Source of the DNA: a virus
DNA length: 36,404 bases
IMG/VR virus record: IMGVR_UViG_3300037796_000167
Coordinates: 1 to 36,404 of that record
Reading direction: 5' to 3' (one strand)
The first letter of the stretch is position 1; each line of letters starts with the position of its first letter. Below are positions 3,686-35,836 of the stretch, piece by piece. The notes under the pieces are model-generated. The model saw nothing but the letters and a program-made list of their open reading frames with translations. It was not told where the DNA came from and did no database searches. A program made the position numbers and the translations under genes.

Positions 3686-3700
3686 AGAGGAGGCTAATAA

Positions 3701-6450: not shown

Positions 6451-6455
6451 TTGAG

Positions 6456-6487
6456 CTCTAAAAACAAAAAGTTTTTGGAGTTTTCTC
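6456..6487 (+). terminator. Rho-independent terminator after tail sheath
   Basis: CTCTAAAAAC (6456-6465) pairs with GTTTTTGGAG (6471-6480) over a 5-base A loop, giving a 10-bp stem with one G-U pair, followed by TTTTCTC. This is a classic intrinsic terminator layout. It separates sheath from tube transcription, and a late promoter follows immediately. Confidence 0.8.
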
Positions 6488-6493
6488 TAAAGA

Positions 6494-6501
6494 TATAAAT
6501 A
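6494..6501 (+). promoter_or_regulatory. Late promoter, T4-type TATAAATA
   Basis: An exact TATAAATA lies just after the terminator and 31 bases before the tube ATG. In T4, late genes are read from promoters that consist of little more than this -10 box, recognised by the gp55 sigma factor with gp33 and the sliding clamp. Its place between a terminator and a virion gene makes a chance match unlikely. Other exact matches in the window fall inside genes. Confidence 0.7.
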
Positions 6502-6524
6502 ACAAATGAAATTGGAGGAAACAA

Positions 6525-7163: not shown

Positions 7164-7197
7164 AAATTCAACTTTACATCGCATATTAGAAATATAA

Positions 7198-7205
7198 TAT
7201 AAATT
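7198..7205 (+). promoter_or_regulatory. Possible second late promoter (TATAAATT)
   Basis: TATAAATT, one base from the TATAAATA consensus, lies in the short non-coding gap between tube and baseplate genes, 25 bases before the ATG at 7223. AT-richness makes chance matches common, so this is weak. Confidence 0.35.
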
Positions 7206-7222
7206 CGTAGAAAGGAGTAAAT

Positions 7223-8143
7223 ATGAGTGACAGTAATGAAATAAATATTCCTGAGCCAGTGAACAAACCACCTCAGGAAGAACAGAAAACTAAGGTAAAA
7301 CATCCTGAAAGTAAGGTGAATACCACAAATAAAATAGGCACACCTGTTAAGAACAAAAGAGCAGGTTCTAGATTTGAACCTGCTCCTGTTTCTGTCGAGG
7401 TACCTTCCCACGGCTTTCTTTATCAAGGAATTACGAACGATGAAGAAGTTGCAAAGGGAGTACTTAGAGTTAAACCTATCACAATGAGAGAAGAAGAAAT
7501 ACTCACCACTGACCGTCTAGTACAACAAGGAAAAGCACTAGATATGGTATTAGAAAATTGTATTAAGTCGGACATAGACCCTTATGACTTACTTTCTTCC
7601 GATAGGCTTTATATCTTATTTTACTTACGCGGAATGACATTTGGATTAGAATATGATTTTGATATCAGATGTTACCATTGTGGATATAACTTTGTACAAA
7701 CTGTAGAAATAGATAAGTTGCCAATCAAAGAATGGGAAAATAAAAAAGAAGCAGAAGAACCGGTGAAAATAGAATTACCTATTTCAGGTGCTACTATAGA
7801 AGCTCACTACATGAGGGGCCACGAAGAAAGAGAATTAACAAAAGTAGAACAAGAATCAAGGACTTTTGATCAACCAGATAGTAGTTCTAGCAGAACATTG
7901 TTAATGCTTATCGATAAAGTAACGATGCCAGATGAAGAAGTATTGAGCCCTCAAGACAAAGAGGATTTTATCTCAAATATGGTTGGATCTGATATAGATT
8001 ATTTCCGTGAAACTCTCAATGAGAATTCTCCTGGTATAAAACAATTAGAAAACATAAAATGCCCTCGATGTGATGGATGGCTAGAATTTAATGTACCTCT
8101 TGGGAGAAACTTTTTTCGTCGATCTCGACCCCGCCAGAAATAA
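7223..8143 (+). CDS. Baseplate hub assembly protein (T4 gp26/gp51-like)
   Basis: The 306-aa protein has a Pro/Lys-rich disordered N-terminus (about residues 1-50), then the pattern VEVPSHGFLYQG, an E-rich helix, a CIKSDIDPYDLL segment, and an R/G/L core (LYILFYLRGMTFGLEYDFD). This resembles the T4 base plate protein family, whose members act in hub assembly. It also has two CxxC pairs (RCYHCG near residue 152, KCPRCD near residue 280) that probably bind zinc. The gene follows the tube and has a strong SD (AAAGGAG). Its 3' end overlaps a +1-frame reading frame at a TTTTTTC run; see the next entry. Family call fairly good; exact T4 counterpart uncertain. Confidence 0.6.
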   Translation: MSDSNEINIPEPVNKPPQEEQKTKVKHPESKVNTTNKIGTPVKNKRAGSRFEPAPVSVEVPSHGFLYQGITNDEEVAKGVLRVKPITMREEEILTTDRLVQQGKALDMVLENCIKSDIDPYDLLSSDRLYILFYLRGMTFGLEYDFDIRCYHCGYNFVQTVEIDKLPIKEWENKKEAEEPVKIELPISGATIEAHYMRGHEERELTKVEQESRTFDQPDSSSSRTLLMLIDKVTMPDEEVLSPQDKEDFISNMVGSDIDYFRETLNENSPGIKQLENIKCPRCDGWLEFNVPLGRNFFRRSRPRQK

Positions 8144-8420
8144 TGCAAGATATAAGTCGCTCATGGCAGAGCGGTATCAGATAGCTTATGTCTCACAAGG
8201 CGCGGTCGAAATGAATTCAATCAAGGACATGACACGAGAAGATCGCGAAACTCTCGTGGAAATAATAACTGATATTAAGAAGAAAGAAGAGCGTGAAATG
8301 AAGAAGGGCACCTCACAAGAAGCCGCTCCTCCGCCAGGAAAAATGGGTAAACAAAATTACAATGCTTTAAAGGGTAAATTTAGTAGTAAGAATAAGGGTG
8401 TACCGAAAATTCCGAAATAA
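8091..8420 (+). CDS. +1-frame extension of the baseplate protein
   Basis: This 109-aa frame overlaps the previous gene by 53 bases and lies in its +1 frame. No good SD precedes its ATG at 8091 or the internal ATG at 8163. Both frames read Phe-Phe at the T6C run (8111-8117), so a ribosome on TTT (8114-8116) could slip forward onto TTC and continue as ...NFFVDLDPARNN. The segment QIAYVSQGAVEMNSIKDMT with ED RET resembles the small helical domain that often follows gp26-type proteins. The rest is Lys/Glu/Pro-rich and probably disordered. It is either a programmed-frameshift product of about 396 aa or a separate, poorly initiated gene. Confidence 0.6.
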   Translation: MYLLGETFFVDLDPARNNARYKSLMAERYQIAYVSQGAVEMNSIKDMTREDRETLVEIITDIKKKEEREMKKGTSQEAAPPPGKMGKQNYNALKGKFSSKNKGVPKIPK

Positions 8421-8438
8421 AAGCATATATTATTTTAT

Positions 8439-9464
8439 ATGAAAATATTAGTATACTCTGATCTGCATCTCCATAATCATCGTGGATTACTATATAATTC
8501 CGAAATAGCTTTAGACATACTATCTAAAATTAAAAATTATTGCTCAAAAAATAATATAGATAAGGTAGTATGCGCGGGCGACTTTTTTCATACTAAAGCT
8601 CGCGCATATGCACCCCATGTGGTACAAGCGCTATTAAGACTTAAAGATTTCAATAAAAATAATATAGAACAATTCATGTTGGTTGGCAACCATGATATGG
8701 CAACTCCAAATAACAGTATGAATTCTATATTATTTGTCTTTAGTGATTACGTAAAAGTAGTACCTGATTATTATTTCATAGACGTGGAAAGCACTAGAAT
8801 ACACTTCTTAAGCTATACTAATGAAGCATTTGATAATTTTATCCTTGCTGAGGATAAAAAGAATGTGCTGATTACTCATATAGACATTATAGGCTTTACT
8901 ATGTCGAATGGTTTTAGAGCCACTAATGGCTTCAAGCTATCAGATTTAAAAGATTTTGATTTAGTAATAAGCGGTCACTATCATAAACATCAAACAAAAG
9001 AAAATGTAGTCTACGTGGGCAGTCCGTATCAAACCAATTATGGAGAAAGAAATCAAGAACATGGTTTTTTGATATTTGATACTGATACTCTAGAGTGGCA
9101 TTTAGAGACTATTAATGATGTGCCTGAATATAAAGTATATGAAGTAGACAATATTAATCAACTAAAAGAAAAAGATGTAAATAATAATTTTCTTAGGATA
9201 AAATTATATAATCAAGATATAAGAAAGTCTTCTCTGAAAGAAAAGTTGTTTGAGATGGGCGCTTTAAGCGTAGAAATAATTCCATTTGAAGACATTCAAG
9301 AGATAGAAAAATATTATGACAAAGAATTAAGTGATGACCCATCAGATAGAGCTGCAGCTTATATAGAAAGCATAAATAATTTATCACTTAAAAAAGAAAA
9401 ATTATTAAAATATTTTGACAAAATACAAGATGTTGCTAACAATATAACAGATTATGAGATTTAA
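8439..9464 (+). CDS. 47: Recombination nuclease subunit gp47 (SbcD/Mre11)
   Basis: The 341-aa metallophosphoesterase is the nuclease half of the gp46/gp47 complex, which resects DNA ends for recombination-dependent replication and repair. All phosphoesterase motifs are visible: D8xH10 (SDLH), G47DFFH51, G83NHD86, H147 (LITHID) and G179HYH182. T4 gp47 is 339 aa, so length matches. No SD is evident upstream of the ATG, unlike most neighbours, so initiation may be weak. The gene overlaps gene 46 by 11 bases, which ties production of the two partners together. Confidence 0.93.
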   Translation: MKILVYSDLHLHNHRGLLYNSEIALDILSKIKNYCSKNNIDKVVCAGDFFHTKARAYAPHVVQALLRLKDFNKNNIEQFMLVGNHDMATPNNSMNSILFVFSDYVKVVPDYYFIDVESTRIHFLSYTNEAFDNFILAEDKKNVLITHIDIIGFTMSNGFRATNGFKLSDLKDFDLVISGHYHKHQTKENVVYVGSPYQTNYGERNQEHGFLIFDTDTLEWHLETINDVPEYKVYEVDNINQLKEKDVNNNFLRIKLYNQDIRKSSLKEKLFEMGALSVEIIPFEDIQEIEKYYDKELSDDPSDRAAAYIESINNLSLKKEKLLKYFDKIQDVANNITDYEI

Positions 9465-11301
9465 TTATATACGCTTCAAAAACTTCTTAAGCTATGGCGA
9501 TGAAATGCAAGAACTAAATTTTTCTGATAATGGTATAAATTTAGTTATCGGTAAAAATAATAAAGATGGCGGGAGTAATGGGTCTGGAAAGAGCTCAGGA
9601 GTCGTAGAGTCACTTGTCTATGGGTTGTTTGGCAAAACAACTAAAAAAATAAAAGCTGATGAAGTGACTAATAATAAAACTAAGAAAGATTGTTTTGTAG
9701 AAGTTTCTTTTTCAATAGGTAGAGATTCATTTAATATAATGAGGTACAGAAACCACACAGAATATGAAAATTCTTTAATATTATTTAAAAATAATAAAGA
9801 TATATCTGGCGAAAGTAAGAATGACACGCAGAAATACATTGAAAATATAATAAAAGTAAGCTTCCGTTCGTTTATATTAAGTATAGTACTTAGCCAAGAA
9901 AAAGTAGAAAATTTCGCAGAAAAAGACTCTCTAGAGAGGCGGAAAATAATAGAAAACTTACTTATGTATGATTTTATTTCTAAATATCATAAGGCAACTA
10001 AAGAGATACTAAGAACAATTAATCCTGAGCTTAATAACTTAGAATCTAAAATAAATGAGAAAAAAGAAAGCATAAACACTCTCACTGAAAATTTATTAAA
10101 TTATATAGAAAATAAAGAAGTCGAAGAGTCTCAGAAACAAAACAAAATAAAGAACTTAGAAGCCGAATTAGAAAAGCTTAGTAAAATTAACCCTGAATAT
10201 GAATTAGAAATAAGAGACACAATAAATAACTTCAAAAAAGACTTAAACAATCTAAACAGTAAAATCGAAGCTACTGAAGACGAAATAAGCCAACAGAGAT
10301 CTTACATTAAGAAATACGATAAATCAATAAAAACTAAAGAAAAAGAAATTGATGAAGTAAAAAACAATCCGAAATTATGCCCAATTATTGAACATAGACC
10401 CGTGTGTCCTTATTTAGAAAAAGACGAGACACTTGAAAATTTTTTGAATAAGAAGAAAAGTGAATTACAAGAAATTAATAGACTTAAAGAAGAATCAGAA
10501 GATAAACTTACTAAAATGGGCAATATTTTATCAGACTTAGAATCAAATTATAACAGTACAAAAAATAAGATCAACGAATTAAGTAGTAACTTAAGTAGTG
10601 ATTTGGATTACGAAGAAGTGAAAAATGCTCATGAAGAGATACCCCGCATAAAATCTGAAATATCTATATTGAAAAAATCTAATTTCGATTTATCTCAAGA
10701 TACATATGTAGAAAAATGTAATACACAAATTGAAGAGCTAAAAAGTGCACTGAATAAATTAAAAAAGAAGTGGAGGAGATTAGAAAAAGAGAAGACTTAT
10801 TACGAATGGTGGAAAGGTGCACTAAGCAATTCACCAAATTCTATTAAGTCTTATTGCATTAATCATATCTTGACGTCACTTAACAAGTATATTAACTATT
10901 ATTTAGAATATTTTAAGTACGATTTTTCTTATTTCTTAAACAACGAGCTTGAAGATTCGATAGAAAAAGACGGTGAAGATATATCGTTTGGTAATCTAAG
11001 TGGTGGTGAAAAGAGAGCTTTAGAAATTAGTTTAGTATTTGCTTTATTTGAAATAGTGAGAATGAAAATACCCGATGACATTAATATCGTAGTCTTAGAT
11101 GAACTTTTATCAACTAATTTAGATGACGTTAGAGTGTCTAGTGTAATAGAAATATTATCTGAACTAGAAGAAAGGGGCTTAAACGTATTCGTTATAGACC
11201 ATAAAAGTTATTTGAAGGACAATTTAGATTGTAGAAAAGTTATTGAAGTTAGCAAAGACAAGAAAGGGTTTTCTAGGTTAGCTGAAAATGGTACACAATA
11301 G
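9454..11301 (+). CDS. 46: Recombination ATPase subunit gp46 (SbcC/Rad50)
   Basis: The 615-aa SMC-like ATPase partners gp47. In order it has a P-loop (about 33-48, ending SNGSGKSS, with a few extra residues in the loop), a Q-loop (VVLSQEK region), two long Lys/Glu/Asn-rich coiled-coil arms (about 190-300 and 330-450), a hook region, the ABC signature LSGGEKRALE (about 514) and Walker B NIVVLDE (about 545-551). The zinc hook is odd: instead of CxxC there is a pair spaced C-x8-C (Cys309 and Cys318). T4 gp46 is about 560 aa. Start taken at the ATG that overlaps gene 47. Confidence 0.93.
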   Translation: MRFNYIRFKNFLSYGDEMQELNFSDNGINLVIGKNNKDGGSNGSGKSSGVVESLVYGLFGKTTKKIKADEVTNNKTKKDCFVEVSFSIGRDSFNIMRYRNHTEYENSLILFKNNKDISGESKNDTQKYIENIIKVSFRSFILSIVLSQEKVENFAEKDSLERRKIIENLLMYDFISKYHKATKEILRTINPELNNLESKINEKKESINTLTENLLNYIENKEVEESQKQNKIKNLEAELEKLSKINPEYELEIRDTINNFKKDLNNLNSKIEATEDEISQQRSYIKKYDKSIKTKEKEIDEVKNNPKLCPIIEHRPVCPYLEKDETLENFLNKKKSELQEINRLKEESEDKLTKMGNILSDLESNYNSTKNKINELSSNLSSDLDYEEVKNAHEEIPRIKSEISILKKSNFDLSQDTYVEKCNTQIEELKSALNKLKKKWRRLEKEKTYYEWWKGALSNSPNSIKSYCINHILTSLNKYINYYLEYFKYDFSYFLNNELEDSIEKDGEDISFGNLSGGEKRALEISLVFALFEIVRMKIPDDINIVVLDELLSTNLDDVRVSSVIEILSELEERGLNVFVIDHKSYLKDNLDCRKVIEVSKDKKGFSRLAENGTQ

Positions 11302-11314
11302 AAAGATAAATAAA

Positions 11315-11785
11315 ATGGAAGAAGAAACTTTCGTACAACATTTTGTAATTGAAAAATCTAATGTTGAAACTATAAGGCTTCTATTAAAAGATGGGTGGAT
11401 TAAAAAAGAGACTAATGTTTTTATAAGAGAACGAGAAAATTATAAGCTCATTTTTGAGGGAAAAACTCATCCAATATGGAAGTTAAAAATAAAACCTAAG
11501 AATGAAAAATTTTCGAACCAAGACTGGAAACTTAAAAAAGACTTAAATAGTATTACTAACCTGGGTCAGAAAAAGTCTAATAAATTATTTCTTAACGATA
11601 AAAATAGAGAAGAAGTAGCAGCCTTAATAGAGTCTATGATCGAAAATGGGTTTCAATTAGTATATAATAACAATTATATAATATTTAGAGATAAAAATAG
11701 GTTGAATATATTTAAGATAGCAGCTAAATTAACGTTACAAGCCCAACCAGATGGATGGTATATAGGTCAAAAGAGGATATTATAA
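11315..11785 (+). CDS. Hypothetical protein, 156 aa
   Basis: Unrecognised basic protein between the gp46/47 pair and uvsX. I prefer the ATG at 11315 (MEEETF, with AGAAAG upstream); an in-frame ATG at 11288 would overlap gene 46 by 14 bases. Charged helices alternate with short strands, and there are no Cys motifs or membrane segments. The stop overlaps the next start as TAATG. Position among recombination genes suggests, but does not show, a DNA-related role. Confidence 0.6.
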   Translation: MEEETFVQHFVIEKSNVETIRLLLKDGWIKKETNVFIRERENYKLIFEGKTHPIWKLKIKPKNEKFSNQDWKLKKDLNSITNLGQKKSNKLFLNDKNREEVAALIESMIENGFQLVYNNNYIIFRDKNRLNIFKIAAKLTLQAQPDGWYIGQKRIL

Positions 11786-12153
11786 TGGAAGTAAAATTAG
11801 GAAGTATTGTAGACATGACTAGTGACTTTGCTAAAAAAGTAACTAGCAATATTGACAATACTAAATTTTTAGTAACAGCAGTGACAGATTTTTCTATAAG
11901 CATAAAAAGCTTATTAAATAGGAACAATTATTCGGTAAGTACTGATTATTTTGTTAAGAATTTTAAGTGGACAAACGATTCGCTTAATTCGACTAATTCT
12001 AAAGTAAAGAAAACGCCTAAAAAAGATACAACTGAAAAGAGCGATTATTCATATATGAGTAGTAAGTCAGCCAGCGTAAAGGGGAGTGCTTTGACATCAA
12101 TAACGACTAGCGATGATTTTGACCCATACGGAGGAGGCGGCGTATATGGCTAG
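11785..12153 (+). CDS. Hypothetical protein with acidic-glycine tail, 122 aa
   Basis: Start set at the ATG at 11785, which has a good SD (AAGAGGA); a longer in-frame start at 11755 lacks one. The N-terminal half looks helical (SIVDMTSDFAKKV), the middle is Ser/Thr/Lys-rich and probably disordered, and the end reads TSDDFDPYGGGGVYG. Acidic-aromatic tails occur in phage DNA-binding proteins as protein docking tails, but no such domain is recognisable here. Confidence 0.6.
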   Translation: MEVKLGSIVDMTSDFAKKVTSNIDNTKFLVTAVTDFSISIKSLLNRNNYSVSTDYFVKNFKWTNDSLNSTNSKVKKTPKKDTTEKSDYSYMSSKSASVKGSALTSITTSDDFDPYGGGGVYG

Positions 12154-12484
12154 AAAAAAGCGAAGCTTCCCAAAAGTGAGAAAACAGATAGACAAAATGA
12201 AAGAGACATATGAAGATATTAAGCAGAACGAGTCAAACAGCAAAACAACAGATGAAAAAGATTATGAATATTGGGTCATAAATATAGTAGATTCTATAGA
12301 AAACAAAAACAGCTTTAATAGAGAATTCTATAATAAAATGATCGAAAAGTATCCGCAAACTAGAGCTATCCTCGACGAGCTCATAGGACAAGTCCAGTTA
12401 TTTTCTATATATGATTTAGAACCTTCCACAATAAATTTCAATTATAGTGCATATTTACTAAAGATTAAAAACTTAATAGAATAG
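12146..12484 (+). CDS. Hypothetical helical protein, 112 aa
   Basis: Start chosen at the ATG at 12146 because GGAGGAGG lies just upstream, inside the Gly codons of the previous gene's tail. The product begins with a very basic stretch (MARKKRSFPKVRKQ) and continues as an alpha-helical, charged protein. Function unknown. It lies 15 bases upstream of uvsX and may belong to the same transcript. Confidence 0.6.
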   Translation: MARKKRSFPKVRKQIDKMKETYEDIKQNESNSKTTDEKDYEYWVINIVDSIENKNSFNREFYNKMIEKYPQTRAILDELIGQVQLFSIYDLEPSTINFNYSAYLLKIKNLIE

Positions 12485-12499
12485 AGAGGTAATTACTCT

Positions 12500-13642
12500 A
12501 TGGTAAGAGAGTTAACTGCGTTAGAGCAAAGTTTGCTCAAGAATATAAATAACAAATTTGGGGAAGAAAACCCTATGGTACAATTAGGTGAGAATGAGGA
12601 TTTTGGTAAGGTAAAAGATTGGATTGACACTGGTAATTTAGCACTTAATTGGTTGATCTCAGGACAATTAAGCGGTGGATATCCAGTTGGAAGGATTTCA
12701 GAATTAGATGGCGACCCAAGTACTGGCAAATCATTACTATGTCAACTAGCTATGAAAGACCCTACTATCGACTTGATAGTTGTATTAGATACAGAAGCTG
12801 CGTTTAATATAGAATTTATTAAATTTTTGGGTGTTGACCCAGATAAGATCTTGTATATGCCAATAGATACTGTTGAGCAAATAACATCAGCTGCTCAAGA
12901 AGTATTAGATACAATAAAGATGAATAAATCTAATAAGAAAGTACTATTCATAATAGACTCCATCGCTCTAGCTACTACAGAAAAAGAAGCAGATCCTGAT
13001 TCTGGTAAAGATATGGGCAATAAAGCTCAATTATTAAGGACATTCTTTAGAGTCTATGCTCGCAAAATAGAACGATATAATATAGGATTGCTGGTTACTA
13101 ACCATTATACTCAAAAAATTGGAGTAACGTATGGCTCTAATAAAACTACTACAGGTGGTACAGCTCTACCTTATGCAGCTTCAGTAAGGATTGACTTAAA
13201 AATTGGGGAAATGGATATTGATAAGAAGAGTGAAAGTATAGGCGCACATTCTGTAACAATCAAAGCTACTACTAAAAAGAACAGATGCTTTTCTCCTCAT
13301 AGAAAGATCAGTTTCTTACTTGATTTTGAACGTGGAGTTAATAAATACTCTGGTCTTTTTGGAATATTAAAAGACATGGGGATAGGTGAAAAGAATGGTC
13401 CTTGGTGTAAAATACCCAGTTGGAACCCAGATGAGAAATTCTTTGAAAAAGATTTTCCAGAACTTTGCGAGAAACACAATTTGCTCCCCTTTATACAAGA
13501 GAAGATGGATGAGTTTAGACAGAAAGAACTTGAAGAAGACCCTGAAATAAGTGAAGAAGCAATTGCTGAAGATGAAAAGAAAAAAGATAAAAAGAAAAAA
13601 GTCGCAAAAGTAGCACAAGAATCTCTTGAAAACGGAGAATAA
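12500..13642 (+). CDS. uvsX: UvsX recombinase (RecA family)
   Basis: The 380-aa ATPase is the strand-exchange protein of phage recombination and of recombination-primed replication. Walker A is G71DPSTGKS78 and Walker B VLFIIDS is at about 148-154. The catalytic Glu region (LDTEAAF, 97-103) and the DNA-binding loop region (VTNHYTQKIGVTYGS then TTGGTALPY) are all in RecA/UvsX order. The C-terminus is acidic then Lys-rich (residues about 340-380), a usual disordered tail. T4 UvsX is about 390 aa. The SD is AGAGGTAA. It works with gp46/47 and UvsW encoded nearby. Confidence 0.93.
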   Translation: MVRELTALEQSLLKNINNKFGEENPMVQLGENEDFGKVKDWIDTGNLALNWLISGQLSGGYPVGRISELDGDPSTGKSLLCQLAMKDPTIDLIVVLDTEAAFNIEFIKFLGVDPDKILYMPIDTVEQITSAAQEVLDTIKMNKSNKKVLFIIDSIALATTEKEADPDSGKDMGNKAQLLRTFFRVYARKIERYNIGLLVTNHYTQKIGVTYGSNKTTTGGTALPYAASVRIDLKIGEMDIDKKSESIGAHSVTIKATTKKNRCFSPHRKISFLLDFERGVNKYSGLFGILKDMGIGEKNGPWCKIPSWNPDEKFFEKDFPELCEKHNLLPFIQEKMDEFRQKELEEDPEISEEAIAEDEKKKDKKKKVAKVAQESLENGE

Positions 13643-16320: not shown

Positions 16321-17388
16321 ATGGCAAGAAAAAGAGCAATAATAGGAGCTGGTCAATGTGGGATGAAACTAGCAAACGAATTCATCCGCACATACAAAAG
16401 CAATGATGAAATTTATAATTTAAGTACTAGCGTAGAAGATTCAGTAGGTATACCTTCTAAAAGGCTAATACAAGTTAGTACTGGTGGAAGTGGCAAGAAA
16501 TTTAGCAATGGTTCTAAAATATGGGAAGAAAGCATACCGTCATTAAAAAAGCAGTTAAACAACATTTTTGATAAAGATGTAATATACTTTACTTCTGCAG
16601 GTGGAGGCAGTGGCAGTAGTTCGATACGATATATAACTGACATATTATTAGAAAATAATAATAGAATATTTCTAGTATTAATACTGCCTTTTGGTTATGA
16701 GGCTTTACCATTCAAGCCAAATACGCTACAAACATTAAGCCGGCTACAAGATGATAAACTGTTAAATAAAATCAGTGTGATGTTATTCGATAACGACAAA
16801 CTGAGTAAGAAATTTTCTGATGTCGAAGTCTATGACGACAAAGAAGTATTAATACCTAACTTAGAAAAAATTAACAATTACATCTTAAAGAGTACTAGTA
16901 TAACTCTAGACTTAGTTAATTTGTACCACGTAGATGGCAATTATTCTCCTTTTACTATTGATGCTTTAGAGCATGACTCGGTAATATTCTCTAAAGGTTT
17001 TATTGGGATAGATTTTGCTTCGTACAAAAAAGGAGCAATCAGTCCGAAATTCGATTATGGTAAGATTTCTGATTGCAAAAATGTAATTCTAGCTAAAGCA
17101 ATACGGTTAAAAGAGTCTGATTACATAATTGACCAACAATCTGGTGAATTTATGGACGCTGTAAAGAAGCTTTCTAGAAAAGCAAAAAATGCTAGAGTAA
17201 TGTATGGTATAATGAGAACTAACGATATAGACCATGGGACGTTCATTATTATTGGTAATAATTTAGATATTACTAAATACATTACGAAAATAAAGAATAA
17301 AGTTGGTGTTACTATAGAGAACTATCGAAGAGAAGATGAAAGAGAGAAAGTGCTCCAAGATGATGAAGTCGAAAACTACGACATTTAA
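16321..17388 (+). CDS. Tubulin/FtsZ-family GTPase (PhuZ/TubZ-like)
   Basis: The 355-aa protein has the tubulin-superfamily nucleotide site: an N-terminal strand with G9AGQCG14 (compare GQCGNQ of tubulin) and the G-box FTSAGGGSGSSS (91-101), the equivalent of GGGTGSG. A following VLILPFGYE strand and a guanine-binding-like FDND (about 158-161) fit the same fold, and a TIDALEHD segment (about 216-223) may be the T7 catalytic loop. Phage tubulins position replicating phage DNA or virions (PhuZ) or segregate plasmid-like genomes (TubZ). The C-terminus is acidic (KVLQDDEVENYDI), as in tubulin tails. SD GAGG is present. The superfamily is clear; the exact subgroup is not. Confidence 0.82.
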   Translation: MARKRAIIGAGQCGMKLANEFIRTYKSNDEIYNLSTSVEDSVGIPSKRLIQVSTGGSGKKFSNGSKIWEESIPSLKKQLNNIFDKDVIYFTSAGGGSGSSSIRYITDILLENNNRIFLVLILPFGYEALPFKPNTLQTLSRLQDDKLLNKISVMLFDNDKLSKKFSDVEVYDDKEVLIPNLEKINNYILKSTSITLDLVNLYHVDGNYSPFTIDALEHDSVIFSKGFIGIDFASYKKGAISPKFDYGKISDCKNVILAKAIRLKESDYIIDQQSGEFMDAVKKLSRKAKNARVMYGIMRTNDIDHGTFIIIGNNLDITKYITKIKNKVGVTIENYRREDEREKVLQDDEVENYDI

Positions 17389-19548: not shown

Positions 19549-21279
19549 ATGTCGGAAAGTTTAAAATTAGGCAACTTAGAACATTTAATATTGAAATATT
19601 CATTGATAGATAGATCATTTTGGCTTAAAGCGTATCAATATATAAAAGCTAAATATTTTGAAAAAGATGAAAACCAGCAAATATTCAGTCTGTTTAAAAG
19701 ACATTTTGAAGAATATAATGAATTACCTGATTATGAAATAGCAGTTAATGAGCTGCGTTCTATTGACCAAAACACTTTAAGAAGTATATTTACGCAAATA
19801 GACCCTGAAGATTATGAAAAATATAAAGATTATATTTATCAGAACACATTTGACTTCATCAGAGAAAATCTAATAACTAATAGTATAAAAAAATCTGTTG
19901 ATTTACTCGAAGAAAAGAAGTACGAAGAGATTGGTGAGATAATTAAAGAAGCTGTAAAATTCAACTTCAATACTGATTTAGGACTTAAACTAAGTGATAT
20001 AGAAGAAAGATACGAACGAATAAAAGAATTAGAGAAAGATAGAGTGCCCACTGGGTTTCCCTTATTAGATGCTTTACTAAATGGTGGTTGGGGACAAAAA
20101 GAATTATATGCATGTGCAGCTCCGCCAGGTATTGGCAAATGTCAGTCTTATGATACAGAAATTGAAATAGAAGTAGATGAAAATAGTGAAATCTTTGAAA
20201 CCATAAAAAGATGTAGAAGTTTTCGTGAAAAAAGAATAAAGATAGGTGATTTAGTAGAAGCACTGGGAGCAACTAACGAAAAACAAGAAATTAATGTGAG
20301 TGACTATAATATTAAAGTAAACACTCCACAAGGGTTTAAGAGAATCAACGGAGTCATGAAGACAGAAGAGTTACCTATTATTAACATAAAGACACAAAGT
20401 ACAGAAATGAATTGTGCCTTCAAACACAGAGTGGAGTCAAAGAATGGTTTCGATTTCGTAGCGAATGTTAATGAAGTGCGTACCAAGAACGGCATCGAAA
20501 AATGTAAAGTTACAGATTTAGCTAGGAAAGAGAATTGTTATGATATACAAGTGGAAGATACTCATAGCTATTGGTCAAATGACATACACAGTCATAATTC
20601 TATATTTTTAGCGAATTGGGGGGTTGGTGCTTTAAAACAAGGTTATAACGTATTAGTATACACATTAGAAATTTCTGAAGAACGTCTCTCAATGAGATAT
20701 GACTCTATATTAACAAAGATACCTAATAGTGAACTAGTGTATGATATTGATAAACTTAAAAAGAAATATGAAATGTTTGCTAAGACTTCTAAAGCAAATT
20801 TGTGGATTAAGGAATTTCCTACAAAGGGGGCTTCTATAAACGACATGAAGTCTCACCAAGAGCAATTACGATTATATGAAAATTTTAATCCAGATTTAAT
20901 ACTAGTAGACTATGCTGGTTTAATGAGACCGTCACGAAAGGGGGCTGATGATTACGGAGAATTGAAAACTATATATGAGGATCTACGAGGTTGGGCTGTT
21001 GAATTATCTGTACCACTAGTAACAGCTGCACAGACTAACAGAAAATCATTAGATGAAAAAGGTGGCACTAAAGAAATAATTACTCAAGCTCAAGTGGCTG
21101 AATCTTTAGGTATTACACAAACATTGGATTTGTTTATGACAATTACTCAATCCAGAAATGAAAAAGAAGAAGGAATTATTAATCTCTACTTAGATAAACA
21201 CAGACATGGCGAATCTTCAAAGATTTTAAAATATGATATTGATTATAAAACTTTCTTATTAGAAGAGGTTGAAATATAA
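19549..21279 (+). CDS. 41: Replicative DNA helicase (gp41/DnaB) with intein
   Basis: The 576-aa precursor is a RecA-fold replicative helicase that moves along the lagging strand with the primase. The N-terminal helical domain covers about residues 1-160; the P-loop APPGIGK ends at residue 197 and is broken there by a 153-residue intein; the host sequence resumes at Ser351 (SIFLANWG). Removal gives a 423-aa protein with intact GIGKS, close to T4 gp41 (475 aa). Walker B is LILVDYAG, followed by VTAAQTNR and a basic DKHRHGESSK arginine-finger region. Activity therefore needs splicing. The SD is AAGGAG. Confidence 0.93.
   Translation: MSESLKLGNLEHLILKYSLIDRSFWLKAYQYIKAKYFEKDENQQIFSLFKRHFEEYNELPDYEIAVNELRSIDQNTLRSIFTQIDPEDYEKYKDYIYQNTFDFIRENLITNSIKKSVDLLEEKKYEEIGEIIKEAVKFNFNTDLGLKLSDIEERYERIKELEKDRVPTGFPLLDALLNGGWGQKELYACAAPPGIGKCQSYDTEIEIEVDENSEIFETIKRCRSFREKRIKIGDLVEALGATNEKQEINVSDYNIKVNTPQGFKRINGVMKTEELPIINIKTQSTEMNCAFKHRVESKNGFDFVANVNEVRTKNGIEKCKVTDLARKENCYDIQVEDTHSYWSNDIHSHNSIFLANWGVGALKQGYNVLVYTLEISEERLSMRYDSILTKIPNSELVYDIDKLKKKYEMFAKTSKANLWIKEFPTKGASINDMKSHQEQLRLYENFNPDLILVDYAGLMRPSRKGADDYGELKTIYEDLRGWAVELSVPLVTAAQTNRKSLDEKGGTKEIITQAQVAESLGITQTLDLFMTITQSRNEKEEGIINLYLDKHRHGESSKILKYDIDYKTFLLEEVEI
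20140..20598 (+). mobile_element. Mini-intein in the helicase P-loop (153 aa)
   Basis: The insert runs from Cys198 to Asn350 of the precursor. Splicing residues are present: Cys1 at the N-edge (CQSYDTEIEIE, block A), a block-B-like stretch with CAFKHRV holding the likely catalytic His, block F (CYDIQVEDTHSYWSNDI), terminal His-Asn (SHN) and Ser as the +1 residue. At 153 aa there is no room for a homing endonuclease, and no LAGLIDADG motif is seen, so it is a mini-intein that can no longer home by itself. Insertion within GIGK/S of DnaB-type helicases is a known favoured site. Confidence 0.92.
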
Positions 21280-24988: not shown

Positions 24989-26035
24989 ATGGAAAAAGAA
25001 AGAAAACTAGCTAGCATTCAAAGAATCAAAGAAATAAAACCCATCGAGAATGCTGATAACTTAGAGTTAGCTATTATAAAAGGTTGGCAATGTGTAATCA
25101 AAAAAGGAGAGTTCAAGTCTGGCGACTTTTGTATTTATTTTGAAGTAGACTCACTGTTACCAGTAAGACCAGAATTTGAATTTTTAAGAAAATCATCTTA
25201 TAACAAAAGACTAGATGGGTTTAGAATAAAAACCGTTAAACTAAGAGGACAAGTCTCACAGGGATTAGCGTTACCTGTAAAAACTTTTCCAGAAATATAC
25301 AATAAATCTCTTGAAGAAGGTCAAGATGTAACTGAAGACTTAGGGGTAAGGAAATATGAAAAAGAAATACCAGTGCAATTATCTGGGAAAGTACATGGTG
25401 CTTTTCCAAGTTTTATTCCTAAGACAGATGAAGAAAGGATACAAAATGTGCCAGAAATATTAACTGAATATCCTGGTATAACATTCTGTGTCACAGAAAA
25501 ACTAGATGGCACTTCGGCTACTTACTATGTTAAAGATGATCATTTTGGTGTATGTGGCCGGAATTGGGAATTTGAAGAAGATGAAAACATTATCTATAAC
25601 AAAATAGCAAATAAATATAACTTAAAAGAGAAAATGTTTGAAGCTGCTAAAGACATAGGAGATTTTGCTATACAAGGTGAAATTATAGGCCCAAGTATAC
25701 AAAAGAACAAATACAAACTAACTGATCATGAATTATACGTGTTTGATGTATTTATAATTGATGAATACGAATATTGTCACCCAATTGGTATAGAAGATGT
25801 CTGTTTAATACTTGGATTAAAACCAGTACCCCGCATAGAAAGAAACTTGTTCTTGGAAGATATAAATACTATTGATAAAGCCGTAGAATATTCTTATGGA
25901 AAATCTGCACTAAATAAAGACACACTTCGTGAAGGTATAGTAATTAGGTCACACTTGCAACTCAAAGACCCACGACTAGGAAGATTATCGTTTAAAGTCA
26001 TCAATCCTAAATTCCTGCTAAAGTATGATGAATAA
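24989..26035 (+). CDS. RNA ligase, DraRnl/Rnl5-like
   Basis: I set the start at ATG 24989 behind AAGGAG; a longer in-frame start at 24947 would overlap the previous gene. The 348-aa protein has an N-terminal OB-like domain (about 1-130) followed by a nucleotidyltransferase: motif I EKLDGT with the AMP-accepting Lys171, a GRNWEF motif, motif III IQGEIIGP, motif IV REGIVIRS and motif V FKVINPKF. That N-terminal OB plus ligase order and length match the Deinococcus Rnl5 type, which seals nicks with an RNA 3' end. A phage role may be RNA repair, for example of tRNA cut by host anticodon nucleases. Confidence 0.88.
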   Translation: MEKERKLASIQRIKEIKPIENADNLELAIIKGWQCVIKKGEFKSGDFCIYFEVDSLLPVRPEFEFLRKSSYNKRLDGFRIKTVKLRGQVSQGLALPVKTFPEIYNKSLEEGQDVTEDLGVRKYEKEIPVQLSGKVHGAFPSFIPKTDEERIQNVPEILTEYPGITFCVTEKLDGTSATYYVKDDHFGVCGRNWEFEEDENIIYNKIANKYNLKEKMFEAAKDIGDFAIQGEIIGPSIQKNKYKLTDHELYVFDVFIIDEYEYCHPIGIEDVCLILGLKPVPRIERNLFLEDINTIDKAVEYSYGKSALNKDTLREGIVIRSHLQLKDPRLGRLSFKVINPKFLLKYDE

Positions 26036-26073: not shown

Positions 26074-27231
26074 ATGATTATAAGGTCTTTGTTAGACAAT
26101 GATTTATATAAGTTCACCATGATGCAAGGGGTGTTACATAATTTCCCTGATGTCCATGTAAAATATAAATTTGCTTGTCGTTCAGACGTGTCTCTAACAC
26201 CTTACTTAGAGGAAATAAAAAGTGAAATAAGCCAATTAGAAAGCCTTACTTTTACACAAAACGAATTAGATTATTTATCTAAACTAAGGTTTATTAAATC
26301 TGATTTTGTAGATTTCCTCAGCCTGTTCAAATTAAAAAGCAAATACGTAAATGCGTACATAAAAGATGACGAATTTCATCTAGAAATAGAGGGTCCATGG
26401 TTACATACTATATTATTTGAAGTGCCAATATTAGCAATAATAAATGAAGTTTATTTTAAGTACCACCCTTCTGATTTAGAATTAAGTTTTAATGCTCTAA
26501 AAAACGAAATGAATATAATAGAAGATACTAACTTAAAATTTGCTGATTTTGGCACTAGAAGAAGATATTCACTTTCATGGCATGATTATTTGATAAAAGT
26601 CTTAAGTAATCATCCCAATTTAGTTGGAACAAGTAATGTAAAATTAGCAAAAGAGACTGGTTTAAATCCAATCGGAACAATGGCTCATGAGTGGATTGAA
26701 GCTGGACAAGCTGTAGGGCCTAGACTCAGAGAAAGTCAAGAATTCATGCTAGACAAATGGGTACATGAATATAGAGGAGATCTTGGTATTGCTCTTACTG
26801 ATACTATTGGCATAGATGCTTTCTTAAAAGATTTCGATTTATATTTCGCTAAGCTTTATGATGGTTTACGACACGACTCAGGGAGTCCAGACGACTTCGC
26901 TGATAAAGTAATAGACCACTACAAGAGCTTGAGAATTGAACCAAAGACGAAGACTATAGTATTCAGTGATGGATTAACTTTTCACGAAGCTTTACGGCTA
27001 TATAATAAATATAAAGACAAAATTAATATTAGTTTTGGTATAGGTACTAATTTCACTAACAAAATGTATGATAATGAATCTATACAAATTGTTATTAAGA
27101 TGGTTGAATGTAATGGACAGCCGGTAGCTAAAATTAGTGATAATCCAAAAAAGAACATGTGTGAAGACAAAGAATATATTACACATCTTAAAAAAGTATT
27201 TGATATCAACAACGGATGGGAGTTACATTAA
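26074..27231 (+). CDS. pncB: Nicotinate phosphoribosyltransferase
   Basis: The 385-aa enzyme makes nicotinate mononucleotide from nicotinate and PRPP, the entry step of NAD salvage. It is clearly of the enterobacterial PncB type: LLDNDLYKFTMMQGV at the start, FGTRRR (159-164), GTSN (185-188), GTMAHEW (201-207, with His205 at the place of the phosphorylated His in the family), LRHDSGSP, VFSDGL and VECNGQPVAKISDNP near the end. Length fits E. coli PncB (400 aa). The next-but-one gene is a PARP that consumes NAD, so local NAD supply is a likely purpose; countering NAD-depleting host defences is another. Confidence 0.95.
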   Translation: MIIRSLLDNDLYKFTMMQGVLHNFPDVHVKYKFACRSDVSLTPYLEEIKSEISQLESLTFTQNELDYLSKLRFIKSDFVDFLSLFKLKSKYVNAYIKDDEFHLEIEGPWLHTILFEVPILAIINEVYFKYHPSDLELSFNALKNEMNIIEDTNLKFADFGTRRRYSLSWHDYLIKVLSNHPNLVGTSNVKLAKETGLNPIGTMAHEWIEAGQAVGPRLRESQEFMLDKWVHEYRGDLGIALTDTIGIDAFLKDFDLYFAKLYDGLRHDSGSPDDFADKVIDHYKSLRIEPKTKTIVFSDGLTFHEALRLYNKYKDKINISFGIGTNFTNKMYDNESIQIVIKMVECNGQPVAKISDNPKKNMCEDKEYITHLKKVFDINNGWELH

Positions 27232-27675
27232 ATGGAAATAGAAATTTATACATTCTTAAAGAACCCTTTTGCTTTGGGCAACGCGGTAACACCAATAAAA
27301 ACTAAAGTAAAAGAATATGAAGTAATTGATCTTGGCTATGAGAAGTCTGGTATCGTTGTTACTAATCCGTATAAATGTTTATACCACGTCGTCGAGCCTG
27401 AATGTGGTGCTATTGTTGGAACCAGCCATGATAAAGCTGAAATTATTGATAAAGTACGAAAAGATGTAGAAGCTAGCGATGAAGAGATATTGAAACAACA
27501 AATAGAGCAAGGTAAAAAAGACCGCGACGATGCTAAGCTTGAAGATAACAAAAATTTCTTTACTCGTTTTAACGGTGAATATCATGAATGGGGTATTGAC
27601 AGTCAGCACAGCAATGAGTACTGTAAAAATTGCTATGCCAATAAGCCAGTAGGAGTAATAAGCGATGGAGACTAA
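27232..27675 (+). CDS. Hypothetical protein with C-terminal CxxC, 147 aa
   Basis: I do not recognise this protein. It lies between pncB and the PARP with no gaps, so it may act in the same NAD-linked process. The N-terminal half is beta-rich (YEVIDLGYEKSGIVVTNP), followed by a charged helix (about 80-110) and a C-terminal HxxxYCKNCYANK segment that may hold a metal. SD GGGAG is upstream, and its end overlaps the PARP start by eleven bases. Confidence 0.6.
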   Translation: MEIEIYTFLKNPFALGNAVTPIKTKVKEYEVIDLGYEKSGIVVTNPYKCLYHVVEPECGAIVGTSHDKAEIIDKVRKDVEASDEEILKQQIEQGKKDRDDAKLEDNKNFFTRFNGEYHEWGIDSQHSNEYCKNCYANKPVGVISDGD

Positions 27676-28867
27676 AGGTGACAAGAAGCTTATTATGGTG
27701 ACTCAAGAGAATAACAACAAGTTCTATAATATGCACGATAATGGTGATGATTCTTTTACTGTAGAATGGGGAAGAGTAGGACAGCCCGGCAAAAAGACGA
27801 CATATCCTATAAAAATATGGGACCGTAAATTACGCGAAAAAACTAAGAAAGGCTATAAAGACGTAACAGAAATTTATGTCGACAGTCAAGAGCAAGAAGA
27901 TTTTTTCGATATTAAAGACCATAAAATATCTAATCTAGTAAAAGATTTACAGCGATATGCTAATACTTCTGTTTCTAGAAATTACACTGTCACTTCCGAA
28001 GCAGTAACAGAAAAACAAGTTGAAGAAGCTCAGACAATCCTTAATCAATTAAGTTCAACGAAAGCAAAAAACGAAGAACCATTAAATGAACTACTAATAG
28101 AACTATATACGATAATCCCACGTAAAATGAATAATGTAAAACGTCACTTATTTGGTAGTGGTTATCAATTGACACTAGAGAACTTAAATAGAATAATTTC
28201 TGAAGAGCAGAGTACTCTAGATGTCATGCGAGGTCAAGTTAATACTAATCAAAAGACAAAAGGTGCCGATAAAAAACAGACTTTATTAGATGCTATGGGA
28301 TTATCTATAGATCATGCAAATGACGATGATTTAGCTAATATAGAATTATTGATGGGTCGCAACTGGGGCCAGTTTAAAAATGCTTTCAGAGTGACCAATT
28401 TAAGCCGTAGAGAGCAATTAAATGAATTCATTAAGAATAAGACTAATAAAACTACTAAGCTGTTCTGGCATGGGTCTAGAAATGAGAATTGGTGGTCAAT
28501 ATTAGACAGTGGATTAGTATTAAGACCTACAAATGCAATTATAACTGGTAAAATGTTTGGCGATGGAATTTACTTTGCCGATAAAGCTCAGAAGTCTTTA
28601 GGTTATTCGTCATTACGTGGAAGTTATTGGGCTTCTGGCTCAGATAATAAAGGTTATTTAGCACTGTATGAAGTACATACTGGTAACTGGTTACATGTTA
28701 AAAAACATGAATACTGGATGTATGATTTGACTGAAAAGAGACTTAAGAAGAGGGGCAATTATGATTCTTTATTCGCTGAAGGGGGAGTAGATCTTCGTAA
28801 TAACGAATATATTATCTACAATCAAAAACAATGCACAATAAAATATCTTATTGAGGTGGCAATATGA
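27665..28867 (+). CDS. Poly(ADP-ribose) polymerase with WGR domain
   Basis: The 400-aa protein has an N-terminal WGR domain (about 8-75; W35GR37 inside VEWGRVGQPG), a helical PARP regulatory-like region (about 85-255, with NELLIELYTIIPRKM) and a C-terminal ADP-ribosyltransferase domain. The catalytic triad is intact: His269 (FWHGSRNENW), Tyr303 (GIYFADKAQKS) and Glu381 (NNEYIIYN). WGR plus regulatory domain is the layout of DNA-break-activated PARP1-3, so DNA-dependent modification of protein or DNA is the best guess. It would use NAD, and PncB is encoded just upstream. SD AGGAG. PARPs are rare in phages. Confidence 0.93.
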   Translation: METKGDKKLIMVTQENNNKFYNMHDNGDDSFTVEWGRVGQPGKKTTYPIKIWDRKLREKTKKGYKDVTEIYVDSQEQEDFFDIKDHKISNLVKDLQRYANTSVSRNYTVTSEAVTEKQVEEAQTILNQLSSTKAKNEEPLNELLIELYTIIPRKMNNVKRHLFGSGYQLTLENLNRIISEEQSTLDVMRGQVNTNQKTKGADKKQTLLDAMGLSIDHANDDDLANIELLMGRNWGQFKNAFRVTNLSRREQLNEFIKNKTNKTTKLFWHGSRNENWWSILDSGLVLRPTNAIITGKMFGDGIYFADKAQKSLGYSSLRGSYWASGSDNKGYLALYEVHTGNWLHVKKHEYWMYDLTEKRLKKRGNYDSLFAEGGVDLRNNEYIIYNQKQCTIKYLIEVAI

Positions 28868-29214
28868 AAAAAAGAACAAAAATAGAAATTTCTATCATGA
28901 TAACTGTCTATGCTTTATCAATTATTTTTATAGCAGTATCACCACATTTCAAACAAGAAGATACAAAAGTTACAAAGGTTGAGTTTGAGACTAAACTTGA
29001 AGAGGTATTATATCTATTAGACAAAGATAAATCAATCACACGTACTTCAATATCATTTTATAATACTTTCGGGGGCGGCAGAAAATATTCAGTCTATATG
29101 ACTTATAAATTAAATGAAAATTCTAGCGTAGATTTGAGTTTTAATAATAAATCATTAGAGAAAGTGCTTAGCGAAGCGCTACAAGAGTATAATGAACTTG
29201 AAAGAACGAGGTAA
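28864..29214 (+). CDS. Single-pass membrane protein, 116 aa
   Basis: After a basic start (MKKRTKIE) there is one membrane helix (about residues 9-27, ISIMITVYALSIIFIAVSP), then a soluble domain of about 85 residues. By the positive-inside rule the soluble part faces out of the cytoplasm. It overlaps the PARP stop in an ATGA. Function unknown; superinfection exclusion or lysis timing are possibilities without direct support. Confidence 0.65.
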   Translation: MKKRTKIEISIMITVYALSIIFIAVSPHFKQEDTKVTKVEFETKLEEVLYLLDKDKSITRTSISFYNTFGGGRKYSVYMTYKLNENSSVDLSFNNKSLEKVLSEALQEYNELERTR

Positions 29215-32755: not shown

Positions 32756-32829
32756 GCTCCGGGCGAGAAATACCACTGCTCAGAGTTCGCAAATTTCCCG
32801 CTTATAATTAAACATAAACAATAATATTA
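32756..32829 (-). repeat. Inverted copy of the 1140-1240 repeat element
   Basis: Read on the minus strand from 32829, the sequence TTGTTTATGTTTAATTATA is followed by GCGGGAAATTTGCG, almost the same as 1146-1191. Beyond it, a more diverged unit lies in the opposite direction (32756-32781, GCTCCGGGCGAGAAATAC), so two units face each other and can form a 9-bp stem (GCGGGAAAT with ATTTCTCGC, one G-U). The element lies between convergent genes and starts right at the radical SAM stop codon. Confidence 0.85.
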
Positions 32830-33789
32830 GCTAGCATATTGGAATTCTAATTGTTGATTTTCACGATTAACTTTAGCTTGTACTATTGCACTCCAATAGC
32901 ATCCATCGCAATTAACACGTTTTCTAGTAGTATGCCACATCTTCTTAAATTCTTCATATTCTTCTTTTGTCATCTGGAGTACATTATAGTCGTCTGCTAA
33001 GTTTGTCCTATACTCATTACATAACATTAAACCACCATCAGCATCCACCCTAAGCTGGTATAAGTCGTCACAATTCCAATTGGAATGTATACCATATAAT
33101 GGAATGTCTCTTATATATTCATATGGGACAGTTAACTTGTAGTCTTTTTCTTTCATTTCTAATAAAGAATCTGATAAGTTTGTTAATTTAAATCTATCAT
33201 TCTTAGAAAAAACGTATTTGCTGTTATTGCGTACTTTAGAAAATTCTTTCTCATTCTGTGAAGTTGTCTGAACTGTACATAAATTGACATATACTCCATC
33301 ATTAGATAAATCTGCTGCTATTTGTGGCACATCATCAATGTTAAATTTATTAATTACCACATTGGCTCCTCTAAGAGGTAAGTCTAAATTTTTGAATATG
33401 TCTAAAATGTAATATCCTCGATTTGACTTTTTGACAGGGTCTTTTTCGTGTCTTATGTGTCTAAGACAATCTATACTAGCGAAATAACCATACAAGCCAG
33501 CATCTACTAACTTTTTGGCATACTCCTCGTTAAATGAAGAATTAGAAAGTAAAGCTGTTTTAATATCAGTTTCTTTATTGATATATTTAATTAAATCTGG
33601 TAACCAACTTTTAACAGTAGGCTCGCCACCCATTATTTTTACTGTTTTTATACCACGATAATGCATTATTTTAAAAGCATTCTTCCAATCTTCTAAAGTA
33701 AATTCATTTAATCGTCTTTGTGTCAATTTGCAATAGCCACAATTCATATTGCAATTCCTTGTCAAGAAAACTTGCGCTTCTGTTATCAT
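32827..33789 (-). CDS. Radical SAM protein with C-terminal Cys cluster
   Basis: The only convincing minus-strand gene. The 320-aa enzyme has the radical SAM motif C13NMNC17GYC20, a GGEP motif (MGGEPTV, about 53-59) for SAM binding, and a C-terminal region with LRVDADGGLMLC and later NCDGCYW, which looks like a SPASM/twitch domain holding a second iron-sulfur cluster. Such enzymes modify peptides, RNA or nucleotides; the substrate here is unknown. A very strong SD (AAAGGAGG) precedes the ATG. Upstream lies an intrinsic terminator on the same strand. Its lone orientation, flanking repeat and own control suggest a separately acquired module. Confidence 0.88.
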   Translation of the reverse strand: MITEAQVFLTRNCNMNCGYCKLTQRRLNEFTLEDWKNAFKIMHYRGIKTVKIMGGEPTVKSWLPDLIKYINKETDIKTALLSNSSFNEEYAKKLVDAGLYGYFASIDCLRHIRHEKDPVKKSNRGYYILDIFKNLDLPLRGANVVINKFNIDDVPQIAADLSNDGVYVNLCTVQTTSQNEKEFSKVRNNSKYVFSKNDRFKLTNLSDSLLEMKEKDYKLTVPYEYIRDIPLYGIHSNWNCDDLYQLRVDADGGLMLCNEYRTNLADDYNVLQMTKEEYEEFKKMWHTTRKRVNCDGCYWSAIVQAKVNRENQQLEFQYAS

Positions 33790-33974: not shown

Positions 33975-35294
33975 ATGGAAGACTTAAAATACATTAAAAG
34001 ATTAATAAGAGAATTAAATAGGACTAATTCTTCAAACGAAAAAAAGAAGATATTAAAAAACCACCCTGAATGTAAAAAGATTTTACGTTATACATACGAC
34101 CCATTCAAACAATATTATGTGACTTCAACTAATCTCAAAAAGATGGCACATTTAGATCAACCAGTAAAAAGATATCACGATTTTTATCAGTTACTAGATG
34201 ACTTAGATGCTCGAAAAATAACTGGACATGAAGCTATAGCTACTGTTAATGGTTTTATCAAAGACAACCCAGCATATGCAGATGAGATATTAAGAGTAAT
34301 TGATCGCAACTTAAAAACGAGAACAGATGCTAAATTGATCAATAAAGTATGGCCTGGTACTGTACCAAGCTTTGATGTAGCATTGGCTCAAAAATATGAA
34401 GACTATGAGAATAAAATTGATTTCAAAAAGCAAAATTGGCTAGCTTCTCGTAAGCTTGATGGAGTAAGAGTCATAACTATTATCGATTCAAATAGAGATA
34501 TAAAATTCTATTCTCGGAAAGGAAAAGAATTTACTACTCTAGATAAAGTAAAAGAAGCAATTAAGAAACAACTTACTCAAAAGATTCAAGGTGGTCTAGT
34601 ACTTGATGGGGAAATGTGCATAGTTGATAAAAATGGCAACGAAGACTTCACTTCAATGATAAAGTTAATTCGTCGCAAAGACTTCACAGTTCCCAACCCT
34701 AAATATAAAATATTTGACATGATGCTTCAAGAAGTTTTTGAAGGCACAGCAGATCCTAAGCTTAATACCAAATTTTCTAGCAGATTAAAAGCTATAGATG
34801 CTATGAAATCACAGGGAATATTTGATGGGAACATTTTGGACCCAGTAGAACAGATCCCTATAGAATCAAAAGAACACTTAATCAAAATGACGAAAGAAGC
34901 TGTTGATTCTGGATGGGAAGGTTTGATTATCAGGCATGATGTACCTTATGAAGGTAAACGCACTAATAATATGCTGAAAGTAAAAAAGTTCCACGATGCA
35001 GAATATATTGTAAAAGATGTCGTTATGGGGCCAATAAGATTTATTGACAATGGTAAAGAAAAAGAAGAGGAAATGCTTTCAGCAATCGAAATAGAACACA
35101 AGGGTTATAAAGTATCGGTTGGTTCAGGATTTTCAATGGATCAAAGAAGATATTATTATAAACACCCTGAAGAACTGATAGGTTCTGAAGTGACTGTAGT
35201 ATACTTTGAAGAAACAACCAACAAACAAAATACAATCAGTCTACGATTCCCTACAGTAAAAGCGATTTATGGCAAAAATGGTCGGCAATGTTAA
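33975..35294 (+). CDS. 30: ATP-dependent DNA ligase (gp30-like)
   Basis: The 439-aa protein joins nicks in replication, repair and recombination. The AMP-accepting lysine is Lys160 in motif I (SRKLDGVR); motif III is LVLDGEMCI, motif IV WEGLIIRH and motif V MLKVKKF, followed by an OB domain. A helical N-terminal domain (about 1-140) fits T4 gp30 (487 aa). The SD (GGAGAG) stands about 15 bases from the ATG, longer than usual. It overlaps the HD gene by seven bases. It reads divergently from the radical SAM gene. Confidence 0.92.
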   Translation: MEDLKYIKRLIRELNRTNSSNEKKKILKNHPECKKILRYTYDPFKQYYVTSTNLKKMAHLDQPVKRYHDFYQLLDDLDARKITGHEAIATVNGFIKDNPAYADEILRVIDRNLKTRTDAKLINKVWPGTVPSFDVALAQKYEDYENKIDFKKQNWLASRKLDGVRVITIIDSNRDIKFYSRKGKEFTTLDKVKEAIKKQLTQKIQGGLVLDGEMCIVDKNGNEDFTSMIKLIRRKDFTVPNPKYKIFDMMLQEVFEGTADPKLNTKFSSRLKAIDAMKSQGIFDGNILDPVEQIPIESKEHLIKMTKEAVDSGWEGLIIRHDVPYEGKRTNNMLKVKKFHDAEYIVKDVVMGPIRFIDNGKEKEEEMLSAIEIEHKGYKVSVGSGFSMDQRRYYYKHPEELIGSEVTVVYFEETTNKQNTISLRFPTVKAIYGKNGRQC

Positions 35295-35836
35295 AAGAGA
35301 TAGTAAACAAAGCATATAATTACTCTAAAGATAAACATAAAGGCCAAGTAAGGTATTATACTAAATTAGAGTATTTTACACACCCTAAAGCTGTGGCTAG
35401 AATAATAGAAAGATTATTTAATGACGAAATAATGGTAGCTGCAGCTTTACTACATGATGTCTTAGAAGATACAGAGACTAGTTGCAAACAGCTACATAAC
35501 GAGTTTGGCCAAGAAGTAGCTGACTTAGTGGTAGAACTAACAAATAATAAAAACATCTTAAAAGAAAAAGGGAAAACCCAATATTTAATAGACAAAATAG
35601 ATAATATGTCAAGCAGAGCTAGATCAATAAAACTAGCTGACAGACTACATAATATAATGCATTTGAGAGAAGATATTGATAAATATCCTATTAAGTTTAT
35701 AGCTAAATTAGTTAAAGAAACTGAAAGTATACTTTTATCTATTGAAGAACACAATCTAGATTTAGCTCAACAAAGTCTTTACTATAAAATATTAAGTGAA
35801 GTAAAGGCAATAAAATTTATAAGAGGGTTAGGATAG
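35288..35836 (+). CDS. HD-domain (p)ppGpp hydrolase-like (SpoT/MESH1)
   Basis: The 182-aa protein has the complete HD signature of the RelA/SpoT hydrolase family: GQVRYYTKLEYFTHP (His32), HDVLEDT (His56, Asp57, Glu60-Asp61) and LADRLHN (Asp118 to Asn122). There is no synthetase domain, so it is a stand-alone hydrolase of the small MESH1 type. It would degrade the stringent-response alarmone and so block host starvation signalling, or act on another phosphorylated nucleotide. It starts inside the ligase gene end and is followed at once by a membrane protein gene. Confidence 0.88.
   Translation: MLKEIVNKAYNYSKDKHKGQVRYYTKLEYFTHPKAVARIIERLFNDEIMVAAALLHDVLEDTETSCKQLHNEFGQEVADLVVELTNNKNILKEKGKTQYLIDKIDNMSSRARSIKLADRLHNIMHLREDIDKYPIKFIAKLVKETESILLSIEEHNLDLAQQSLYYKILSEVKAIKFIRGLG

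Follow-up and report, generated by a model that had tools for sequence, protein, structure and literature searches.

A nicotinate phosphoribosyltransferase gene beside a WGR-PARP gene in a tailed phage, with the genomic neighbours of both genes among viral relatives

PARPs activated by DNA breaks, among them PARP1, PARP2 and PARP3 and bacterial WGR-PARPs such as CdPARP of C. difficile (PMC5966428), combine a WGR domain, a helical regulatory-like region and an ART domain with an H-Y-E triad. Human PARP3, which is also DNA-dependent, ADP-ribosylates DNA 5'-phosphates, and ligases can then join them (PMC5843604); terminal ADP-ribosylation of DNA can be reversed by several hydrolases, TARG1 among them (PMC5725667). 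That phages carry PARPs and genes for NAD+ salvage is already known (PMC7824862, PMC9503650, PMC12774641): the PARPs of the jumbo-phage survey and of the survey of viral NAD+ and ADP-ribose genes belong to the same enzyme family as the one described here and come from large phages (PMC7824862, PMC9503650), while NARP1 (Adps and Namat) and NadV with NadM or NadR are phage genes that rebuild NAD+. Here we describe a phage locus at which a WGR-PARP gene lies beside a gene for PncB, and ask what the neighbours of each gene in other viruses say about this pairing.

The window analysed, a whole virus record of 36,404 bases, is a fragment (36.4 kb) of the genome of a contractile-tailed phage; its other genes include those for tail sheath, tail tube and baseplate, SbcCD, RecA/UvsX, DnaB and a tubulin-like protein. 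In DnaB (19549-21279) an intein-like insertion of some 150 residues (about aa 199-350), absent in L013 and larger in L004, sits close to the Walker A motif, and the tubulin/FtsZ-like protein (16321-17388; Pfam Tubulin, E 2e-12) has a weak match to a PhuZ PHROG. On the minus strand, a radical SAM protein (32827-33789) matches the PADLOC prokaryotic-viperin model (E 9e-15) and could be another radical SAM enzyme; an HD-type phosphohydrolase lies at 35288-35836 (PHROG_990, E 2e-28).

A sequence-only reading of the window had singled out three close-packed genes at 26074-28867, and their coordinates and identities are confirmed. PncB, a nicotinate phosphoribosyltransferase (26074-27231, 385 aa), an orphan protein termed X (27232-27675, 147 aa) and the WGR-PARP (27665-28867, 400 aa) are all on the plus strand, with an SD-like sequence, judged by eye, ahead of each start. 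The first base of X directly follows the PncB stop, its last 11 bases are shared with PARP, and PARP overlaps by 4 bases the next plus-strand gene of the run (28864-29214), an entry of the ORF list whose 116-aa product matches no Pfam family over cut-off and no PHROG. The run, which in this way extends beyond 28867, begins before PncB with an RNA ligase of the Rnl5/NgrRnl (Naegleria) type on the plus strand (24992-26035), in which an N-terminal OB domain (Pfam PHA02142 OB, E 8e-39) is joined to a nucleotidyltransferase domain (RNA_ligase, E 7e-24; PDB 5cot, E 3e-68); its ORF opens at 24947, and homology indicates 24992 as the likely start. Orthologues of this ligase lie 1.2-7.6 kb from PARP in L002, L003, L004 and L018. 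In L003, an RtcB-like RNA ligase (8685-9962), recognised by eye from the sequence, is immediately upstream of PARP. Promoter- and terminator-like sites between 22000 and 33000 are no commoner than in shuffled sequence, so it is the gene packing that suggests an operon.

The PncB had been described as complete, and it is: the N- and C-terminal domains are both present at full length (Pfam NAPRTase_N, E 4e-36; NAPRTase, E 2e-77), the score against NCBIfam TIGR01514 is 462 bits where the cut-off is 270, phmmer recovers 1yir at E 6e-120, and the GTMAHEW histidine, invariant in seven viral PncBs, is kept. Length and histidine are as in bacterial PncB (TIGR01514), from which the window gene differs in being phage-encoded, on a fragment where neither NadE nor PncA is matched within the 36 kb. 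Nor does the NAMPT model detect a Nampt/Namat-type gene in this fragment. Family and motif together suggest that the window PncB acts on nicotinic acid. PncB uses nicotinic acid and PARP frees nicotinamide, so recycling between the two requires a nicotinamidase, NadD and NadE, which, as far as the fragment was searched, would come from the host. In the PncB tree the window sequence is sister to that of L092 (support 97/99), a contig in which the PARP search has no match.

Elsewhere among viruses, PncB keeps company with other genes of NAD+ synthesis. A NadE, PncA-like or NadD-like gene lies within 10 kb of PncB in 61 of 72 viral PncB clusters (NadE in 45, PncA-like in 47, NadD-like in 24, all three in 16), counts that may include some other isochorismatases or nucleotidyltransferases, since the models for PncA and NadD were each built up iteratively from one seed. 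Clusters with PncA, PncB, NadD and NadE suggest that phages carry a deamidating (Preiss-Handler-type) route to NAD+. Two other lineages pack such genes near PARP. L311 (1-11227) has PncA, NadE, NadD and PncB consecutively, then DNA ligase, macrodomain and PARP genes, all within 11 kb; the island of L185 (IMGVR_UViG_3300029305_001655, 3088-13371) runs through PncA, Prs, a Nampt-type gene, a macrodomain, NadE and DHH to a TARG1-like macrodomain, PARP, a YqeY-like gene and an NAD-dependent DNA ligase (LigA). Single phages carrying pncB, nadD and nadE have been listed earlier (PMC13384950); as a recurrent phage cluster, the four-gene deamidating route is not described in the portions of the phage NAD+ and PARP literature accessible to us (PMC7824862, PMC9503650, PMC12774641). 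Unlike NARP1 and the NadV pathways, the window route takes nicotinic acid through PncB with no Nampt/Namat-type gene in the window, and viral relatives of this PncB are accompanied by PncA, NadD and NadE instead. Pfam NAPRTase occurs in 19 of the 33 PARP contigs of 100 kb or more, a frequency set here only against the NadV rates of a published survey, 22% (medium) and 33% (jumbo) (PMC9503650), and not against a matched control.

The third gene encodes, as had been read from its sequence, a PARP with an intact H-Y-E triad and a WGR domain. Pfam matches both WGR (E 5e-8, over cut-off) and PARP (E 3e-28), and the triad (H269, Y303, E381) and the G36/R37 of the WGR motif are invariant in the same 37 viral PARPs. 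The WGR domain spans about aa 6-70, the helical regulatory-like region about 86-200 and the ART catalytic domain about 210-400; the helical region is not matched by Pfam PARP_reg, and an AlphaFold2 model built from 37 viral sequences (pLDDT 89.4) places helices across aa 86-199, between WGR and ART. Among PDB structures, this model is closest to PARP1 and PARP2 bound to DNA double-strand breaks (E 5e-21), with a match that spans the WGR, helical and catalytic parts. As modelled, then, the window PARP is built like DNA-break-activated PARPs, in the order WGR, helical region and ART, a likeness drawn from sequence and model; it differs from them in being phage-borne and in lacking zinc fingers and BRCT. 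It is probably a DNA-end-activated ADP-ribosyltransferase.

A further difference from the cellular enzymes lies in the genes that surround the viral family. PARP relatives are present in more than 200 IMG/VR contigs, and among cultivable phages the family occurs in Cellulophaga phage phi17:2; 166 PARP loci, taken from scans and reference records, form 102 clusters when grouped at 90% identity. In 36 of these clusters an ATP-dependent DNA ligase lies less than 5 kb from PARP, and in three more the nearest one is 5-10 kb away; this proximity is significant by a binomial test (P 2e-8), though the clusters are not independent and the closeness, tested without a matched control gene, may merely mirror a common replication and repair gene region. 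In the window an ATP-dependent DNA ligase (33975-35294, plus strand; PHROG_114, E 3e-81) is found 5.1 kb downstream of PARP, and its 68.6% identical orthologue in L002 is about 2 kb from PARP. By comparison with these relatives, the window ligase is a possible functional partner of its PARP. In 47 of the 102 clusters a macrodomain gene lies within 1 kb of PARP, mostly just upstream. The macrodomain-linked PARPs group into a single clade (51 rows); the window PARP is outside this clade, and no macrodomain is matched anywhere in the window record. The one macrodomain compared, that of L072, matches human TARG1 (E 6e-30) and keeps GCGLDRL, and runs of DNA ligase, macrodomain and PARP recur in L073, L312, L324, L333 and L343. 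We considered a DarTG-type toxin-antitoxin pair and rejected it: the L185 macrodomain reaches 38 bits against the DarG NCBIfam model (cut-off 250), and that of L072 resembles TARG1. L008 carries a tandem pair of PARP genes (8062-11200). The surveys of phage PARPs, in the parts open to us, contain no description of the linkage of PARP with macrodomain and DNA ligase, or of a PncB neighbour (PMC7824862, PMC9503650).

Together, the fold, the ligase linkage and the chemistry of PARP3 and TARG1 point to a putative role at DNA ends as the most plausible one for the viral PARP. PARPs of WGR-helical-ART architecture modify proteins too, and for this reason DNA is put forward as a putative substrate only.

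Between PncB and PARP stands X, with a coding score of 0.27 bits per codon in frame against about -0.2 in each of the other two forward frames. The label 'CxxC protein' given to it earlier is fair, as it has a single CxxC (NEYCKNCY) near the C terminus. No homologue was found in phages (tblastn), in IMG/VR or GTDB contigs, or in Pfam, PHROGs and NCBIfam, and a single-sequence AlphaFold model is uninformative at a pLDDT of 34. A marginal PADLOC REase_II match (E 0.004, 42 aa) is taken as chance, and hhalign gives no support (probability 0.9%) for kinship between X and the small Cys-rich protein whose gene precedes PARP in loci of the L071 type. X is best read as an unexplained passenger beside PncB and PARP.

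Do the two flanking genes nevertheless form a unit? The sequence-only reading had proposed an NAD module, and in its favour one gene supplies NAD+, the other consumes it, and both look intact; the conserved adjacency of the three genes that it set as a test is not seen. With X an orphan, the comparison falls to PncB and PARP, and besides the window only one of the 102 PARP clusters, L004, has them within 1 kb. There they are 185 bp apart in the reverse order, PARP-PncB, and the L004 PncB groups elsewhere in the tree, not as sister to the window PncB. Conversely, just four of 50 other PncB contigs have a PARP match, one of them WGR-only. In 26 contigs with both genes (G030 was left out as a near-copy of G029, and gene coordinates were entered by hand from search outputs, some being approximate), the gap is under 500 bp in two against 0.20 expected (P=0.017), under 5 kb in four against 1.97 (P=0.125) and under 10 kb in five against 3.84 (P=0.33), the wider distances, up to 10 kb, fitting chance. 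Nor, across 10 kb, do NAD-synthesis genes cluster towards PARP. Such a gene does lie within 10 kb in three of five members of the window's PARP clade against six of 97 others (Fisher P=0.004), the clade (the window, L002, L003, L004 and L018) being a grouping chosen after the data were seen; the member L018 has NadE 2.1 kb from PARP. The pairs under 500 bp and the excess in this clade hint at more than independence. A dedicated unit, in which PncB, perhaps with X, and the host's nicotinamidase, NadD and NadE would refill the NAD+ spent by PARP, can draw on these two results, on the tight packing and common strand in the window, and on the other lineages, L185 and L311, that pack NAD+ synthesis near PARP. 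Set against the orphan X, the reversed order with non-sister PncBs, the few PncB contigs with PARP and the want of distance bias, it seems unlikely to us. The best reading is that PncB and PARP share an NAD+ pool and are not an obligate module; their functional cooperation is possible.

If the genes are separable, either might be explained without the other. PncB could be an anti-defence gene only, restoring NAD+ depleted by host TIR, SIR2 or similar defences, with PARP unrelated. Phages reconstitute NAD+ against such defences by NARP1 (PMC12774641), the same role has been proposed for pncB, nadD and nadE in a phage (PMC13384950), and the viral PncB loci rebuild the PncA-PncB-NadD-NadE route; in the window fragment, however, nicotinic acid and host NadD and NadE would be needed, and general metabolic support accounts for the gene equally well, so that we regard this explanation as distinctly improbable. 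PARP, for its part, might modify host proteins for takeover, like Alt and Mod of T4, and not DNA ends. Two surveys count PARP/PART as one of the commonest ART families in viruses and suggest a host-modifying role for jumbo-phage PARPs (PMC9503650, PMC7824862), but a WGR domain with invariant key residues followed by a helical domain, nearest folds that are DNA-break-bound PARPs, the linkage to DNA ligases and the lack of a head or portal gene adjoining the window PARP make this very improbable here.

We moderately favour, instead, a DNA-end-activated PARP beside an independently acquired NAD+-supply gene, the two being separately useful accessory genes that have come to lie side by side in the shuffled early-gene region of a large myophage. 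Through its WGR and helical domains PARP would detect ends or breaks in phage DNA; its ART domain would then spend NAD+ on marking these ends or the proteins bound to them, an aid to phage-encoded ligases in joining or protecting the ends. PncB would put phosphoribose on nicotinic acid and so raise NAD+ through the deamidating (Preiss-Handler) route, drawing on the host's NadD and NadE, a gain that would serve all NAD+ use and could offset host defences that deplete it. Against an independently acquired supply gene beside a DNA-end-activated PARP speak the window's lack of a macrodomain and the 5-kb distance of its ATP-dependent ligase. A more integrated scheme, a phage DNA-end ADP-ribosylation system in which PARP marks ends for ligases, a macrodomain erases the marks (in one clade) and PncB resupplies NAD+, we hold to be doubtful.

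If PARP acts on DNA ends, phages would be using break-sensing ADP-ribosylation, a chemistry best known from eukaryotic DNA repair, and would have it genomically linked to the ligases expected to act on the ends so marked. Separately from this, the recurrent clusters of PncA, PncB, NadD and NadE suggest that phages have an NAD+ route distinct from the Nampt-based ones.
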